Assembly (NCBI RefSeq): GCF_900155385.1
Contig: NZ_LT699744.1
Location: 577,562 to 641,561 of the forward strand
Origin: Vreelandella massiliensis
GTDB taxonomy: Bacteria > Pseudomonadota > Gammaproteobacteria > Pseudomonadales > Halomonadaceae
Length of the DNA: 64,000 nt
Reading direction: 5' to 3'
Positions within the stretch are counted from its first letter, which is position 1, and each line of letters begins with the position of its first letter. Below, in pieces: positions 7,314-14,464 of the stretch. The position numbers were made by a program, and so were the translations under genes. The notes under the pieces were generated by a model, which saw only the letters and a program-made list of their open reading frames with translations, did not search any database and was not told where the DNA came from.

Positions 7314-7642
7314 TCGCGAATTTCCTTTTTGCCGTCCACGTGATCGTTACCCACTTCGCTGCGTGCGCGCATGGCCAGAATCACCACAAAAGCGGTCATG
7401 GCGAAGCCAATCACAATGGCGGTGAGCACTAGGGCTTGCGGCAAAGGGTCGGCAAAGTGCCCGTCACGGTTTGCCAGGGCGGCGCCGTCGGTGGTTAAGC
7501 CGCCCATGGAGAAGAGAAACAGGTTCACGGCATACGACAGCAGCGTGAGGCCGACAACGACGGGAAAGGTGCGCCCGCGCAAGGTGAGGTAAAGCCCGCA
7601 GGCGGTCAACACTCCAGTGGTTATGGCGTATAGCATCTCCAT
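7310..7642 (-). CDS. phaC: Na+/H+ antiporter subunit C (Mrp/Pha type)
   Basis: A 110-residue NuoK-like subunit with three transmembrane helices, for example GVLTACGLYLTLRGR and LVLTAIVIGFAMTAFVV. Its ATG shares one base with the phaAB stop (TAATG). The ribosome site AAGGAG lies inside the end of phaAB, so reinitiation after phaAB is likely. It overlaps phaD by four bases. This is an antiporter subunit and should not be confused with polyhydroxyalkanoate synthase, which carries the same symbol; mrpC or mnhC are safer synonyms. Confidence 0.95.
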   Translation of the reverse strand: MEMLYAITTGVLTACGLYLTLRGRTFPVVVGLTLLSYAVNLFLFSMGGLTTDGAALANRDGHFADPLPQALVLTAIVIGFAMTAFVVILAMRARSEVGNDHVDGKKEIRE

Positions 7643-10482
7643 TAGCGTGACTCCTTTTGTGGCGCGGAGGCGTCGGTCTTTGTGTCAGAAGGTTCCAGCA
7701 TGGGCCGGTGGGGCGTGGTCACTTTACCTAGATTCGCAAGAATCATCAGCGTGGCACCGACCACCGCGAGATACACCCCGAGATCAAAGAGCAGGGCGCT
7801 TGCGAGCTCAAAGGTGCCCACCAACGGCAGCGTGAAGTAGCTAAAGGTCGAGGTGAGGAACGGATAGCCGAACAGCCAGCTTCCCAGGCCGGTGAGGGTG
7901 GCGATGGCGACACCGGCCACCGCGACCGGCTGGAAAGGGAAGTTGAGCTTAGACTGCGCCCACTCCACTCCGCGAGCCATGTAGAGCAAAATAAGCGCGA
8001 CGGCGGTAATTAGCCCGGCGATAAAGCCGCCCCCGGGCAAATTGTGTCCGCGCAAGAAGATAAACGCCGACACCAGTAGCGCCAAGGGCAGCAGCGCCAT
8101 GGAAATCGAAGTCAAAATCGCCGGGTAGCGATCCGGTGACCAGACGCGCCCTTCGCCGTCACTGTGCGGCATGAAAAGCCGCAGGCGGTTGAGAAGTTTG
8201 AAAATCGCCAGGCCCGCCAAGGCCAAGACCGTGATCTCACCGAGGGTATCAAAGCCACGGAAGTCGACCAGTATCACGTTGACGACGTTATAACCGCCGC
8301 CGCCGGGCTTGCTGTTTTCGATAAAAAATTCCGAGATCGACAGCGTCTCACGGGTTAACACCGCGTAGTTAAGACTCGCCACCACCAGCCCCAGAGCGCC
8401 TGCTAGCAAGATATCGCGCAGGTTGCGCAAAGGGCTCGACTCCCGCGGTGTTTTTTGCGGGAGGAAAAACAGCGCGAGCATCAGCAGAATCATCGTGACC
8501 ACTTCCACCGACAGCTGGGTCAGGGCGAGGTCGGGCGCCGAGAAACGCGCAAAGGTCAGCGCGACAAAGAGGCCGACAACCGACAGCATTAGCAGCGAAA
8601 TAAGGCGGTAGCGGTGCGTGGCGGCTGTGGCGATACCGCCAAATATCAGCATGCCCGCACCGAGCATCACTATCGCATCTACGTCTTGATTGCCCCGCGC
8701 GCCGGTCAGGCCGGTGATCTGGACAAGGCCGACAACCCCCATGACAAAGGCGGCGAAGAGTAAAAGCCCCATGTAGCGCTGCAGGGAGTTGCCCTCGATA
8801 ATGGCAACGCAGCGCTCGGCGCGGTAGCTAAGCATCACCACCGCACGCTCAAAGACACGGCGGGCATCCACCCCGGCAAAGCTCTGGGTAAATTGGCGTA
8901 AATCGGCGTGGCGCCAGTACATCACGGTGCCCAATACCAGCGCCGCCACGCTCATCATCAGCGGCAGGTTCACCCCATGCCAAATGGAGAGATAAAAGCC
9001 AAATGGCTCGATCACCACTGCCTGAGTCGCCAGATCGAGAAGCCCCGTGGCCATCAAGCCTGGCAAAAGCCCGACCACCACGCAGAGCACTACCAGAATC
9101 TCTACCGGCAGGCGCATCAGGTGTGGCGGCTCGTGGGGCGTTTTTGGCGGAGCCTTGCGCGCGGGCTTAAAGAATACCGCATGCACCAAGCGCAATGAGT
9201 AGGCCACCGATAAAATGCCGCCAAGGGTCGCCAGTGCCGGCAACAGCCAACTGAGCCCGCCCAGTACCGGCGTGACCACTGTCTCAGTGAAAAACATCTC
9301 CTTGGATAAGAAGCCGTTAAAGAGCGGCACACCCGCCATGGCAGCGGCGGCAAGGGTGGTTAAAAGCGCCGTAACGGGCATGGTTTTCTTCAAGCCGCCG
9401 AGCTGTTTCAATTCGCGCGTTCCGGTTTCATGGTCGATAATGCCCGCGCTCATGAACAGCGCGGCCTTGAAGGTGGCGTGGTTCAAGATATGAAACAGCG
9501 CGGCCAGCACCGCCATGGGGCTACCAATGCCCAGCAGCACGGTAATCAGCCCCAGGTGGCTCACGGTGGAAAAGGCGAGAATGCCTTTTAAGTCGGTTTT
9601 AAACAGGGCGAACCAGGCGCCGTAGAGAAGCGTTGCCGTGCCCACCAGCGACACGATAACGGTCCAGAGCTCGCTGCCGGCAATGGCGGGATGCAGGCGC
9701 GCCATTAAGAAAATACCGGCTTTCACCATGGTCGCCGAGTGCAGATAAGCGGATACCGGCGTGGGGGCTGCCATCGCGTGGGGCAGCCAGAACTGAAACG
9801 GGAACTGGGCGGATTTGGTAAAGGCGCCGAGCAGGACCAGAACGAGCATGACAGGGTAGCGCGGATCAGCGAGAATCGCGTCGCTGCTTGCCAGCACCAC
9901 GTTAAGGTCAAAGCTGCCGGCGATGTTGCCCAACAGCAAAAGCCCGGCGAGCAGGGCAAGCCCGCCCGCGCCGGTGACGGTAAGCGCCATCCGGGCCCCT
10001 TTGCGGGCATCGCTGCGGTGCGACCAAAAGCCGATCAGCAGAAACGAGGAGAGGCTGGTCAGCTCCCAAAAAAGCCACAGCAGGATGAGGTTGTCGGACA
10101 TCGCAATGCCGACCATGGACGCCATGAATAGCAGCAAAAACGCATAGAATCGCCCATAAGGCTCTTCAGGGCTCAAATAGAAGTGGGCATAGAGTAAAAT
10201 GAGTAGCCCGATTCCCAAGATCAGCAGATTGAAGAGTAGCGTGAGCCCATCAAGGCGCAGGGCGAGATCAAGCCCGAGCTCGGGTAGCCAGGTGGCGGAG
10301 AAGCGCAGCGTTTCGCCGTCCACCAGGGCAGGAATTTGGCCCAGTGTGAGCAGCAGGGCAAGGGCGGGCGCAATGGCGGTCGCGCGAGTGCAAACGGCGC
10401 GACCTCGCTGCCCGAGCAGAGCAGGCACCACGACGCCCAGCAGAGGCAGTAGGGCTATCCACAGCAGTATCATGGGAATCAT
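7642..10482 (-). CDS. phaAB: Na+/H+ antiporter subunits A and B fused (Mrp/Pha type)
   Basis: A 946-residue fusion. The first 500 or so residues are the NuoL-like antiporter module with Glu140 in [11 protein letters not shown] and Lys223 in [10 protein letters not shown], the same numbers as in Bacillus MrpA. A small-helix region around 610-700 matches the complex-I J-like part of MrpA. The last 130 residues are an MnhB domain with [14 protein letters not shown]. Fusion of A and B defines the six-gene group 2 Mrp operons of proteobacteria such as Rhizobium, Pseudomonas and halophiles. It is the first gene of the operon, divergent from the cation channel. Likely role: Na+ (or K+) efflux and pH and salt tolerance. 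Confidence 0.95.
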
Positions 10483-10575
10483 CCAATGAAAAATGTCTAA
10501 AGTCGCATTGCATCGATTTCAAATGCGATGAAGCAACGTAGGATACATCAGTCAGTTTAGAGAGTATCAGCTCTG

Positions 10576-10604
10576 TTGAGATTTTGAAGATATTGCCTTC
10601 TAAC
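10576..10604 (+). promoter_or_regulatory. Candidate sigma70 promoter of the cation channel gene
   Basis: TTGAGA (10576-10581) and TCTAAC (10599-10604) are separated by 17 bases, matching 5/6 and 4/6 consensus positions. The predicted transcription start near 10611 falls about 25 bases before the channel ATG, and a GGAGAGAG stretch lies between them. The same 153-base region must also hold the promoter of the divergent antiporter operon, for which no clear match was found. Confidence 0.45.
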
Positions 10605-10635
10605 GCCTTTCCCCGGAGAGAGTTGTACAAAACGC

Positions 10636-11502
10636 ATGAGTGAACCGTTTAATACCTGGCAGTCGCGCTTTGAAGCGCTGCGCTCCAATAAAATTTTTGA
10701 AGGCGTGGTGATCACCATCATCGTGGTTTCCGCCTTGGCCATTGGCGCTAAAACCTACGAAGAGACGTCGCGTTTCGAGCAGTGGTTGCTGTATCTCGAT
10801 GTCGGCGTGACGCTGTTTTTCTTGGTGGAAATCCTGATTCGCATGGCCGCCGAGCGTAATCTGCGAAGCTTTTTTAAGCGCGGCTGGAACGTGTTTGATT
10901 TTATCATCGTCACCGCCAGCTTAATTCCGCTTGATGACTCTGAAATGGTGCTTCTGGCGCGACTATTACGTATTTTCCGGGTACTGCGCTTGGTGTCGAT
11001 GATTCCCGAGCTGCAAATGCTGCTGGTGGCGCTGGTGAAATCGATCCCACGGATGGGGTATGTGGCGCTTTTAATGTTTATTATTTTCTATATATACGCC
11101 GCGTTCGGCAGCTTTCTGTTCGCCGATATCGATGAGTTTTTGTGGGGTAATATCTCCATTTCTATGCTCACTCTGTTTCGCGTCGCCACCTTTGAAGACT
11201 GGACGGACGTGATGTATGCCACGCAGGAGGTGTACGCTTGGAGCTGGCTTTATTACCTCACCTTCATCTTTTTGACCGCGTTTATTTTTCTCAACATGAT
11301 GATTGGGATCGTGTTGGATGTGATGCAAAAAGAGAGCGACAAGCAAGCGCTGGAAAAGGGTGAGGGCGATACGGCCGAGATGCACAGCATGCATGACGAT
11401 ATCCGCCGGCTGCAAACCCAGTTGGATCGCATGGAGGCGACGCTTACCGCTGCAAATGGGCATGAAACGCCAAAGGGCATTGACAAACAGCGCCCAGACT
11501 GA
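10636..11502 (+). CDS. Voltage-gated cation channel, single-domain BacNav type
   Basis: A 288-residue ion-transport protein with the plan of prokaryotic voltage-gated sodium channels: six helices that form a tetramer. S4 carries four arginines at three-residue spacing (R109, R112, R115, R118). The pore loop reads TFEDWTD (185-191), aligned with the TLESWSM filter of NavAb, so the high-field-strength Glu is kept and two further acidic residues are added. S6 ends in FLNMMIGIVLDVM. A C-terminal coiled coil (about 253-273, heptads in DDIRRLQTQLDRMEATL) fits the known tetramerisation helix. The added acids suggest Ca2+ permeation or mixed selectivity; this is inference. It is divergent from the Na+/H+ antiporter operon and ends 12 bases before the leu leader peptide. 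Confidence 0.88.
   Translation: MSEPFNTWQSRFEALRSNKIFEGVVITIIVVSALAIGAKTYEETSRFEQWLLYLDVGVTLFFLVEILIRMAAERNLRSFFKRGWNVFDFIIVTASLIPLDDSEMVLLARLLRIFRVLRLVSMIPELQMLLVALVKSIPRMGYVALLMFIIFYIYAAFGSFLFADIDEFLWGNISISMLTLFRVATFEDWTDVMYATQEVYAWSWLYYLTFIFLTAFIFLNMMIGIVLDVMQKESDKQALEKGEGDTAEMHSMHDDIRRLQTQLDRMEATLTAANGHETPKGIDKQRPD
11480..11485 (+). promoter_or_regulatory. Possible -35 element of the leu transcript
   Basis: A perfect TTGACA inside the last codons of the channel gene, 30 bases before the leader peptide ATG. At a 17-base spacing the -10 would be TTTTCT (11503-11508), a poor match (3/6), and transcription would begin almost at the leader ATG. It is offered only because a leu promoter must lie in or before the channel gene. 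Confidence 0.25.
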
Positions 11503-11514
11503 TTTTCTAGGGGC

Positions 11515-11574
11515 ATGAATACACCGATGACGCACCTTGCACTAGACCTACGACTACTTAGCGCCCGTCTCTGA
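11515..11574 (+). CDS. leuL: leu operon leader peptide
   Basis: A 19-codon reading frame, [19 protein letters not shown], with a Shine-Dalgarno-like AGGGG five bases upstream. Six of the last twelve codons are leucine, and three of them are CTA, the codons clustering as CTA-GAC-CTA-CGA-CTA-CTT. That pattern is what a ribosome-stalling leucine sensor needs. It starts 12 bases after the channel gene and is followed by hairpins and an intrinsic terminator just before leuA. Ribosome stalling when leucyl-tRNA is scarce would be expected to favour readthrough. The peptide itself probably has no other role. Confidence 0.85.
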
Positions 11575-11589
11575 AGTTTCAGGGTCGGG

Positions 11590-11613
11590 CAATGCTAAAT
11601 GCTGCTGGCATTG
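11590..11613 (+). promoter_or_regulatory. Leader hairpin of the leu attenuator
   Basis: CAATGC (11590-11595) and GCATTG (11608-11613) are perfect complements around a 12-base loop, placed 15 bases after the leader-peptide stop. It could be the early pause or antiterminator-competing stem. Which alternative structure excludes the terminator cannot be settled by eye. Confidence 0.5.
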
Positions 11614-11729
11614 TCGTTGGTTTTCTATTGCGAGGTCGTCATGGTTTTACACATTATCTACCCCCAAACATCTCAGCACCGCTGCCGTACCGCCTTTGAT
11701 GCGGCACAAAGTGTTGCGAGTATTACCAG

Positions 11730-11764
11730 CGCCCCTTGGCCGTTTACGGCAAAGGGGCGTTTTT
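11730..11764 (+). terminator. Intrinsic attenuator terminator before leuA
   Basis: CGCCCCTT (11730-11737) pairs perfectly with AAGGGGCG (11752-11759). An inner GCC/GGC pair and a small loop complete the stem, and TTTTT (11760-11764) follows directly. It lies 18 bases before the leuA ATG and downstream of the leucine-rich leader peptide, so it is best read as the attenuator. I recall a published structured-RNA candidate named leuA-Halomonas at this position in related genomes; identity with it needs a covariance search. Confidence 0.88.
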
Positions 11765-11782
11765 CGTTCTAGGAGAGCCGCC

Positions 11783-13489
11783 ATGATGTTGTCTGATCCC
11801 GCCAAAAAATACCGTCCCTTTGTGGCTGTCGATCTGCCCGATCGTCAGTGGCCCAATCGCCGTATCGAAAAAGCGCCGATCTGGACCAGCGTTGATCTAC
11901 GTGATGGCAATCAGTCGCTGATTGATCCGATGGATCACGAACGTAAACAGCGTCTCTTCGATATGCTGGTCAATATTGGGTTCAAAGAGATTGAAGTCGG
12001 CTTTCCTTCCGCCTCGCAAACCGACTATGACTTTGTGCGTGCGCTGATAGAGCAGGACAAAATCCCCGACGATGTGACCATTCAAGTGTTGACCCAGGCG
12101 CGTCCACACCTGATTGAGCGCACCTTCGAAGCCCTTAAGGGCGCCAAAAACGCCATTGTTCACGTCTATAACGCCACTGATCCCATGTTCCGTCGCGTGG
12201 TGTTTCACGTCGACAAGGAGGAGTGTATCCAAATTGCCGTGGACGCGACGCGCCAGATTCGCGACCTGATGGAAGCTAACCCAGAAACCCACTGGACGTT
12301 CCAGTACTCACCGGAGCTTTTTTCCACCACGGAGATGGATTTTGCCGTGGAGATTGTCGAAGCGGTCATGGATACCTATGCACCGAGTATCGACAACCGC
12401 ATGATCGTCAATCTGCCCGCCACGGTGGAGGTGGCAACGCCCAATAACTACGCCGACCAGATTGAGTGGTTCTGCCGCCATGTGAAACATCGCGATAGCC
12501 TGATTGTCAGCGTTCATCCGCATAACGACCGCGGTACCGGCGTGGCCGCCGCGGAATTGACCCTGATGGCCGGCGCTGACCGCGTGGAGGGCACGCTGTT
12601 TGGTAACGGCGAGCGCACCGGCAACGTCGATATCGTGACCTTGGCGATGAACATGTATACCCAGGGGGTGCATCCGGGCCTCGATTTCTCCAACATAACC
12701 CCGGTGATGCGCGAAGTGGAGTATTGCAACCAGTTGCCGGTGCATCCGCGCCACCCTTACGTGGGTGATCTGGTATTTACCGCTTTCTCGGGCTCGCATC
12801 AGGATGCGATCAAAAAAGGCATGGCCGATCGTCGCGCCAATCCCGAGGCGGTGTGGGACGTGCCGTATCTGCCCATCGATCCGCTCGACGTGGGTCGCAG
12901 CTACGAGGCGGTGATTCGCGTGAATAGCCAGTCGGGCAAGGGCGGCGTCTCCTACCTGCTGGAGCAGGAGCACGGCATTGAGCTGCCGCGCCGGCTCTCC
13001 ATCGAGTTCAGCCAGGTCGTTCAGGAAGTGGCCGATCGCACCGGGCGCGAGATCACTTCACAAATGATCTATCAGGCCTTTGCCGATGAGTACCTGGAGC
13101 AGACATCACCCTTTGCGCTGATCAATCACCGCCTCTCCTCCGAGCCGGATAGCCCCAAGGTTCTGCTGGAAGCAGTGATCGAGGAGAACGGCGAGCGCCA
13201 AACGCTCAAAGGCGAAGGTAACGGCCCGCTGGCCGCGTTTATCAAGGCGCTTGCAGCCGCCGGTCACGATGTCGAAATTATCGACTACCACGAGCACTCC
13301 CGTGGGCAGGGCGCCGATGCTGAAGCCATCGCCTATGTGGAAGTCCGCATTGATGGCGAGGCCATCTTTGGTGTGGGCACTGACGAAAGCATCACCAGCG
13401 CCTCAATGAAAGGCGTGCTCAGCGCCATCAACCGCCACCACTCCACCCAGGCGCCTGCGCCCAACGTGACGGCGGAAACGCTGGCTTAG
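11783..13489 (+). CDS. leuA: 2-isopropylmalate synthase
   Basis: Condenses acetyl-CoA with 2-oxoisovalerate, the first committed step of leucine synthesis. The 568-residue protein is the longer LeuA form. The catalytic TIM barrel carries [11 protein letters not shown] near the N-terminus and the metal-binding HPHNDRG and GNGERTGN motifs. The C-terminal 130 residues form the leucine-binding regulatory domain, so feedback inhibition is expected in addition to attenuation. Reading frame continues upstream to 11696, but that would run through the terminator. The ATG at 11783, with AGGAGAG 6 bases ahead, is chosen; the next ATG is the following codon. No other leu genes are nearby. Confidence 0.95.
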
Positions 13490-13601: not shown

Positions 13602-14051
13602 CTAGTCCAACAGTCTGCGGTCGAGAGGAAATTGCTCAACTGAAAGTTGAGCAAGGCTTGCTTCCGGGTGGTACGGGTTAAAAAGGTAGTTGCCATTATG
13701 CGGCACAATCACCGTGGGCACTTTGAGTAGTAAAGAGCTACCTTCATTCAGCCAAGTTGTGGCGAGCGAGCGGGTCAGGTTCTGTTGCTGATGCCAGTTT
13801 TCTGGCAAGTCATTATAAATAGATTCTTCGCTGATAGTTGGCGGTAGCTCAACGCGTAGTAGTGTAAATTGATCAGGTAGCTCATCGATGCTCATTTCGA
13901 AGTGAACGAGCACTTCAAGCAGCGCGGTGGCGGGTGAGTCGGCTAGATACACGACCGGCTGGCCTTTATGATGCCAGCGGCCCGCAGTGATCGTGCCCCC
14001 TATACCAGAGAGATCCCTGTAGTTGGATATACGCCACGCTACTTTGCTCAC
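13602..14051 (-). CDS. RES-domain toxin
   Basis: A 149-residue RES protein. The family-typical N-terminal Arg is in AWRISNYRD, and the Glu is in ATALLEVLVH. The late PHNGNYLFNPYHP segment is also typical. Characterised RES toxins (ParT, MbcT) modify substrates with, or degrade, NAD+, which stops growth. Its ATG overlaps the stop of the upstream Xre gene by four bases, so the antitoxin is made first. Base composition looks more AT-rich than the flanking core genes, fitting acquisition by transfer. Activity is inferred from the family. Confidence 0.9.
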   Translation of the reverse strand: MSKVAWRISNYRDLSGIGGTITAGRWHHKGQPVVYLADSPATALLEVLVHFEMSIDELPDQFTLLRVELPPTISEESIYNDLPENWHQQQNLTRSLATTWLNEGSSLLLKVPTVIVPHNGNYLFNPYHPEASLAQLSVEQFPLDRRLLD

Positions 14052-14464
14052 GCCGATAATCCATAGTGCAGTTGCTGAAGTAGCTCCTCTACGGCTTCAT
14101 AGCCTGGAGTCGTGGTGACAGCCGTCAACGCATTGATTCCACCGAGCGTACGGCGAGGCTTCTCTAGCCAACGAATGGCTTTCTCGCGATTGCCGAAAAC
14201 CTCTTCGGCGAGGATAACGATTTTGCTGGTCCGGTAGAGTCGATCTCCCTCGTCAGGCGTCAAAGGCCTTCCTTTTAAGCGTCGGTGATCATGCGTGCGG
14301 CGATTAATGATCCCTACACCATAAGCATCAATGCCGTGCTCGTTACGCAGTCGCTCTAGGGCATCTAGCGGTACGCCTTCGCGGATGAGCTTATCCGAAC
14401 GTGTGCCTATCGAGCCGCCCATTAGCGCGATGACTTCACTTTCAACCACATCGGTACCTTCCAT
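14048..14464 (-). CDS. Xre/ParS/MbcA-type antitoxin (DUF2384)
   Basis: A 138-residue partner of the RES toxin. The N-terminal part (about 25-80) resembles the Xre-like helix-turn-helix of this family, with KLIREGVPLDALERL. The C-terminal part (about 80-138) is the DUF2384 toxin-binding domain with EEVFGNREKAIRWLEKPRRTL, including the WL and GG (LGGINAL) features. In characterised pairs this domain plugs the toxin active site and the protein represses its own promoter. The promoter region here holds a matching palindrome. Confidence 0.9.
   Translation of the reverse strand: MEGTDVVESEVIALMGGSIGTRSDKLIREGVPLDALERLRNEHGIDAYGVGIINRRTHDHRRLKGRPLTPDEGDRLYRTSKIVILAEEVFGNREKAIRWLEKPRRTLGGINALTAVTTTPGYEAVEELLQQLHYGLSA

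Follow-up and report, generated by a model that had tools for sequence, protein, structure and literature searches.

NavPp from Plesiocystis pacifica, a channel with the selectivity filter TLEDWTD, is Na+-permeable with a PCa/PNa of 0.308 and shows low-affinity block by Ca2+, and its mutants TLEDWSD and TLEDWAD stayed non-Ca2+ channels (PMC7041947; statements on published work here refer to the available portions of the cited articles). CavMr from Meiothermus ruber, with the filter TLEGWVD, is a true Ca2+ channel in which Gly at position 4 is the key determinant, while the TLEDWTD filter of NavPp placed in the CavMr body gave a PCa/PNa of 13.8 (PMC7041947). The AnclNav of Halomonas elongata (YP_003896792), which has a NavPp-like filter, was cloned and gave no detectable current, and a Teredinibacter channel with a filter similar to that of NavPp gave no current either (PMC7041947).

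Phe at the second filter position is found in some BacNav and AnclNav channels; the NavAb mutant L176F has a current that is not reduced by Ca2+, and canonical BacNavs are free of divalent block (PMC10349818). According to PMC10120453, a one-domain channel with Asp at position 4 is invariably Ca2+-selective, and NavAb with the filter TLEDWSM or TLDDWSD turns Ca2+-selective; the name NavPp is absent from the main text of that article.

The channel and its selectivity filter

The gene considered here lies in the window, the whole stretch of 64,000 nucleotides from the salt-loving bacterium Vreelandella massiliensis that was analysed. Orthologues of its product in Halomonadaceae and neighbours have either a D-type loop, with the filter TFEDWTD as in the window channel, or an S-type loop, with TFESWAT and one additional codon. 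The features of the gene and its surroundings are as follows, with the basis of each in brackets.

7642..10482, minus strand: mnhA/mrpA-like Na+/H+ antiporter subunit, divergent neighbour (Pfam PF00361, MnhB, MbhE, MbhD)
10636..11502, plus strand: single-domain voltage-gated cation channel gene, 288 amino acids (Pfam Ion_trans at residues 18-237, E 9.8e-46)
10939..11001, plus strand: S4 voltage-sensor helix, residues 102-122 (sequence; model helix 102-122)
11134..11277, plus strand: putative exchangeable pore cassette, residues 167-214 (type-separating columns, mosaic tests)
11152..11187, plus strand: P1 pore helix, residues 173-184 (AlphaFold2 model, block pLDDT 84-86)
11188..11208, plus strand: selectivity filter TFEDWTD, residues 185-191, three acidic residues per subunit (sequence)
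11200..11232, plus strand: P2 pore helix, residues 189-199 (D-type and S-type models, alignment)
11242..11358, plus strand: S6 inner pore helix, residues 203-241 (model)
11368..11454, plus strand: C-terminal helix, residues 245-273 (model, block pLDDT 48-77)
11696..13489, plus strand: leuA, 2-isopropylmalate synthase, downstream neighbour (Pfam HMGL-like, LeuA_dimer)

A second Ion_trans match in the genome is a Kv-type channel with TVGYGD, and 10636-11502 is the sole BacNav-type gene found; the window channel is single-copy, voltage-gated, and presumably homotetrameric. Its nearest named relative is from Halomonas salicampi (91% identical), and strong matches (E below 1e-100) occur in 71 of 151 sampled genomes of the family. 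The four S4 arginines, at 109, 112, 115, and 118, are invariant in a 34-row alignment. In the model, cassette residues 167-214 correspond to the P1 helix, the filter, the P2 helix, and the first third of S6. The AlphaFold2 models of the D-type (pLDDT 70.3, pTM 0.48) and the S-type (pLDDT 64.7, pTM 0.42, and below 50 at residues 172-183) show single subunits with moderate confidence and therefore place helices only, not pore geometry.

The sequence-only reading had put TFEDWTD at residues 185-191 and at 11188-11208, and both positions are exact: the motif stands there in the 288-amino-acid translation and begins at base 11188. The filter TLSSWET of NavRh (PDB 4dxw) aligns at TFEDWTD, so the filter is correctly placed. 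The Phe at position 2, which had been called unusual, proves ordinary in the group, being present in 265 of 303 sequences. This set consists of the window and 302 loci (274 distinct proteins), mostly best matches to the window; it includes every one of the 71 strong family matches, the top 80 named loci, and, from further matches, the best together with a hand-picked portion, some genomes occurring in both collections. Filters were counted by motif; alignment columns hide the inserted residue of the S-type. TFEDWTD is exact in 163 of the 303 sequences and is therefore not a chance occurrence, and it is followed by TFESWAT (95), TLEDWTD (17), TLESWSM (16), TFESWTS (4), TLSSWET (2), and six types found once each. 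Asp at position 4 and Asp at position 7 are coupled throughout: 180 sequences have both, 123 have neither, and none has one alone.

Several rare filters deserve separate mention. TFESWTS (L125, L223, L257, and L266), TFESWTA (L113), and TFESWTQ (L112) lack both filter Asp residues and the codon insertion, and these six loci are scattered over several branches; they possibly represent a point-mutation route parallel to cassette exchange. TFDNWAH (L274), TLDGWSG (L301), and TMDGWRF (L306) all have Asp at position 3, and in TLDGWSG and TMDGWRF this is followed by Gly at position 4.

The window channel has the single domain, the S1-S6 helices, and the Arg-rich S4 of AnclNav channels, as well as a filter that is TLESW-like but more acidic. 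TFEDWTD differs from the filter of canonical BacNavs such as NavAb and NaChBac. In a 69-row quick tree, for which rows were drawn within types and in which the sequences of CavMr, NavPp, and NaChBac themselves are absent, the 16 canonical TLESWSM rows group on a separate branch (support 100), apart from the 53 others including the window. Judged by its sequence, the channel belongs to the non-canonical, AnclNav-like side of bacterial sodium channels. A search of NCBIfam returned no family for the D-type or the S-type.

Predicted permeation

The NavPp data and the "beacon" rule of PMC10120453 disagree on Asp at position 4, and they predict different behaviour for the window channel. Why one and the same filter should favour Na+ in one channel and Ca2+ in another is an open question; since TLEDWTD in the CavMr body gives a PCa/PNa of 13.8, the body matters and the sequence alone cannot decide. 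The NavPp model is favoured because, among the channels in these papers, NavPp is the recorded natural one with such a filter. By analogy with NavPp, there is a slightly better than even chance that the window channel would open on depolarisation, pass mainly Na+, be blocked by extracellular Ca2+, and allow some Ca2+ permeation. The S-type, by analogy with canonical BacNavs, would be a Na+ channel free of Ca2+ block.

The sequence-only reading had mentioned the TLEDWTD filter of NavPp and a true Ca2+ channel in M. ruber, and PMC7041947 agrees on both counts, though the filter of the latter is TLEGWVD with the key Gly4. It had also given CavAb (TLDDWSD) Asp at two positions; there are three, the third being at the Glu177 position (PMC10120453). 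Its proposal that the window channel may pass Ca2+ or be Ca2+-blocked fares better in its second half than in its first, because CavMr needs Gly4 and NavPp is Na+-preferring with low-affinity Ca2+ block.

If Asp4 and Asp7 gave Ca2+ selectivity as in CavAb, the window channel would be a true Ca2+ channel, suited to voltage-triggered Ca2+ signalling. The NavAb mutants TLEDWSM and TLDDWSD (PMC10120453) and the selectivity of TLEDWTD in the CavMr body (PMC7041947) speak for this reading, which is nevertheless unlikely: TLEDWTD in NavPp itself is Na+-preferring and Ca2+-blocked, neither of its two mutants is a Ca2+ channel, and the window filter has Asp at position 4, not the Gly that is the source of CavMr selectivity. 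A true Ca2+ channel would concern permeation only and is compatible with cassette exchange.

Two loop types at one locus

The S-type loop reads LFQVATFESWATAVLYPTMEVYP and the D-type loop LFRIATFEDWTDVMYATQEVYA. In the alignment the S-type is one residue longer, and the additional residue lies in the P2 pore helix region (the pore is poorly modelled in the S-type). Many orthologues with an S-type loop are about 65-77% identical to the window channel. Among 56 D and 81 S rows, 17 columns discriminate D from S at 0.6 or above, and all of these lie within window residues 167-214.

In profile comparisons, D cassettes score 102.9 bits with D-type loops of other gammaproteobacteria and 34.6 bits with canonical loops; the corresponding scores of the S cassette are 82.2 and 62.6 bits. 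The S cassette is thus far more canonical-like than the D loops (62.6 versus 34.6 bits). Its direct origin from a canonical NavAb-like channel is unsupported, given 82.2 bits to D-type loops versus 62.6 to canonical ones. The longer version of the S motif had no match in 274 genomes of the class, among which the family is represented by the own genome and one other, and the shorter version matched 5 of 194 genomes from the order, of which three belong to the own family and two to one other family, f37.

The surroundings of the gene were surveyed in 85 loci with a length of 9 kb or more. Of these, 61 have a leuA homologue downstream in the same orientation and 27 an mnhA homologue upstream in the opposite orientation, each beside D-type and S-type genes alike. 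The place of leuA is thus widespread and that of the antiporter common to part of the group; 16 loci have none of the four neighbours sought. The mnhA-like reading frame of the window (7642-10482, minus strand) encodes 946 amino acids and combines Proton_antipo_M, MbhD, MbhE, and MnhB domains in one protein. In alkaliphilic Bacillus, a voltage-gated channel is the Na+ re-entry path for Mrp antiporters (PMC4225499). By analogy, Na+ entry through the channel might conceivably serve the neighbouring Mrp-type antiporter, a weak guess, as only some of the relatives have that gene next to the channel. Downstream of leuA, at 13602-14464 on the minus strand, there is a RES-domain and Xre/MbcA/ParS-type pair, likely a toxin-antitoxin module; among the 85 loci, many of which end before that point, a RES relative was seen in the own genome only.

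The D and S types interdigitate both on the tree of the rest of the gene and on that of the adjacent leuA, taken as a species-tree proxy, and a single clean origin is rejected. The rest-of-gene tree (residues 170-210 removed) is a quick tree with many weakly supported inner branches; type changes 13 times across its 152 rows, and a single S-type clade is rejected on it (p-AU 0.021, lnL 212 lower). On the LeuA tree there are 13 type changes in 58 rows (22 D, 36 S), and the D-type as one clade is rejected (p-AU 2.6e-6, lnL 577 lower). The groups compared in the AU tests were picked once the data had been seen, as were the body and donor rows. Neighbours of opposite type on the LeuA tree are Billgrantia gudaonensis (D) beside G020 (S) with support 99, G008 (D) beside Halomonas sp. 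328 (S) with support 100, and G108 (D) beside G088 and two others (S) with support 91. Type has some phylogenetic signal on this tree: its 13 changes compare with an average of 17.8 under shuffling, and 13 of 1000 shuffles gave 13 changes or fewer. In strains named Vreelandella aquamarina, a D gene (L036) and an S gene (L098) were considered as a same-species polymorphism, which was rejected because the two are only 78% identical over 5.8 kb.

Mosaic genes

The D-type gene L008 and the S-type gene L027, from genomes G108 and G088 (a single contig each), are 93.5% identical in nucleotides upstream of the cassette, 66.7% inside it, and 93.1% downstream. The two loci are collinear over 12.4 kb with 88.8% identity. 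The cassette contains the least similar of 1020 intervals compared along them (0.653 versus a mean of 0.89), and similarity is almost as low (0.674) in another stretch, 5.7 kb downstream. The L008 cassette is closest to the D-type cassette of L007 (88%), while the bodies of L008 and L007 are 80% identical. In a max-chi2 test, L008 follows the L007 donor at 40 of 45 informative sites inside residues 164-218 and at 19 of 156 outside; the statistic of 99 compares with 22.6 for the largest of 500 permutations (p 0.002), and third positions alone also give p 0.002.

The loops could also have arisen again and again by point mutation under selection, through amino acid convergence and without any exchange of DNA. 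Joint switches of positions 4 and 7 without the insertion do exist (TFESWTS, TFESWTA, and TFESWTQ), and the third-position or codon signal is missing for several pairs including the window. This route is nonetheless quite improbable. The L008 and L027 proteins have 3 differences in their first 166 residues, against 17 replacements and a codon insertion in their cassettes (counted on the alignment), and where they share an amino acid the codon is identical in 11 of 27 cases inside the cassette versus 134 of 166 outside (p 3.8e-5). At third positions, the cassettes of L024, L037, L007, and L035, like that of L008, follow a D donor (p 0.002-0.006), although some third-position breakpoints exceed the cassette (102-209 in L037, 137-208 in L024).

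Across the wider sample, the signal is uneven. Fewer shared codons inside the cassette are found at p under 0.05 in 8 of 14 D/S pairs, and the other six (L047/L093, L012/L117, L011/L093, L035/L031, window/L017, and L005/L017) have no significant codon dip. L012, the window gene, L005, and L014 pass the max-chi2 test with all sites (p 0.002-0.004) and fail it at third positions (p 0.06-0.50). The all-site test delimits residues 157-214 in the window gene, with 35 of 41 sites inside versus 63 of 177 outside (p 0.002), while third positions alone are not significant with either donor L012 (p 0.074) or donor L041 (p 0.437). Over all pairs, local identity correlates with outside identity at 0.75-0.83 along the gene and at 0.47-0.57 in windows of 40 codons that start at 161, 173, and 185; with third positions alone the drop at the cassette is small, to 0.67-0.70 versus 0.70-0.82 elsewhere. 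For pairs with 85-90% upstream identity, cassette identity is 89.5% between genes of the same type and 71.8% between genes of opposite type. The window gene itself likely arose by exchange, with weaker support than its relatives.

Horizontal transfer of whole genes, drawn from two orthologues long separate, would explain why the types interdigitate on the LeuA species proxy. It is very improbable, as the closest D/S pairs are about 90% or more identical in the rest of the gene and drop in the loop, the L008 and L027 loci are collinear over their 12.4 kb, and strong type-separating columns occur only in residues 167-214. Programmed switching, in which a silent second loop in the same genome would be recombined into the gene as in phase variation, is hardly credible: two discrete alternative cassettes at one locus would fit it, but no second loop was found in 11 genomes searched with both cassettes (one real copy each, other matches at E about 0.6), and the repeats found in 9900-12000, a direct pair (20 nucleotides, 80%) lying upstream of the gene and an inverted pair (72%), do not flank the cassette. 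Because each of the 11 genomes has one real copy, we infer exchange between genomes and not from a silent copy.

The proposed cassette exchange and its significance

There are two types, the strong differences between them are confined to the cassette, and several relatives are mosaics at the nucleotide level. The best explanation of the whole, recombination of a P1-filter-P2 cassette in place together with NavPp-like permeation, is given a probability of roughly 0.66. It supposes two alternative pore cassettes (P1, filter, P2, and the start of S6, with core residues 167-214), which lineages of the Halomonadaceae, and probably of neighbouring Oceanospirillales too, would have swapped between genomes through homologous recombination, the remainder of the gene and its locus staying where they were. 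Such an exchange would reset divalent sensitivity in one step, given that the S-type is presumed to be a Na+ channel free of Ca2+ block; a change of selectivity between the types would follow from the same analogies. The fuller proposition is evenly balanced: that recombination of a cassette of 45-50 codons switches selectivity between an acidic filter, Ca2+-blocked or Ca2+-permeable, and a canonical-like Na+ filter, recurrently in the Halomonadaceae, and is kept by selection under local ionic conditions.

Among the titles listed for the open-licence PMC literature, none concerned the exchange of bacterial channel filters by recombination or transfer. TFEDWTD is ordinary as a filter type, and a relative has already been cloned without current; the recombining cassette is the noteworthy part. 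The channels of G108 (D) and G088 (S) form a natural near-isogenic pair with opposite cassettes, including the insertion. With this pair, the contribution of the complete cassette could be determined in a single body, with no need for engineered mutants. Should the types prove to differ in selectivity, they would exemplify clearly how channel selectivity can evolve through cassette exchange and not through point mutation.

Comparison with known systems

NavPp shares with the window channel the single domain, the pattern T-x-E-D-W-T-D, and three acidic residues per subunit, and its filter matches at 6 of 7 positions. It has Leu at position 2 where the window has Phe, it is known by recording whereas the window channel is known by sequence, and the comparison covers the filter; cassette exchange is not described for it in the available part of PMC7041947. 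The H. elongata AnclNav comes from the same bacterial family as the window, and its filter is likened to that of NavPp by description only. The engineered CavAb has Asp at positions 4 and 7 like the window and, unlike it, also at position 3, while the native Ca2+ channel CavMr has Asp at position 7 like the window but differs in Gly4 and Val6. NavRh (PDB 4dxw) is the closest solved one-domain structure, both by sequence (216 bits) and by Foldseek (TM-score 0.82-0.85 by target length), but its TLSSWET has neither Asp of TFEDWTD. On the S side, the cassette with TFESWAT and the extra codon resembles NaChBac (TLESWAS) and the canonical TLESWSM channels in motif and loop length; unlike these channels, whose canonical rows form a separate branch (support 100), the S-type cassette sits in an AnclNav-like body.
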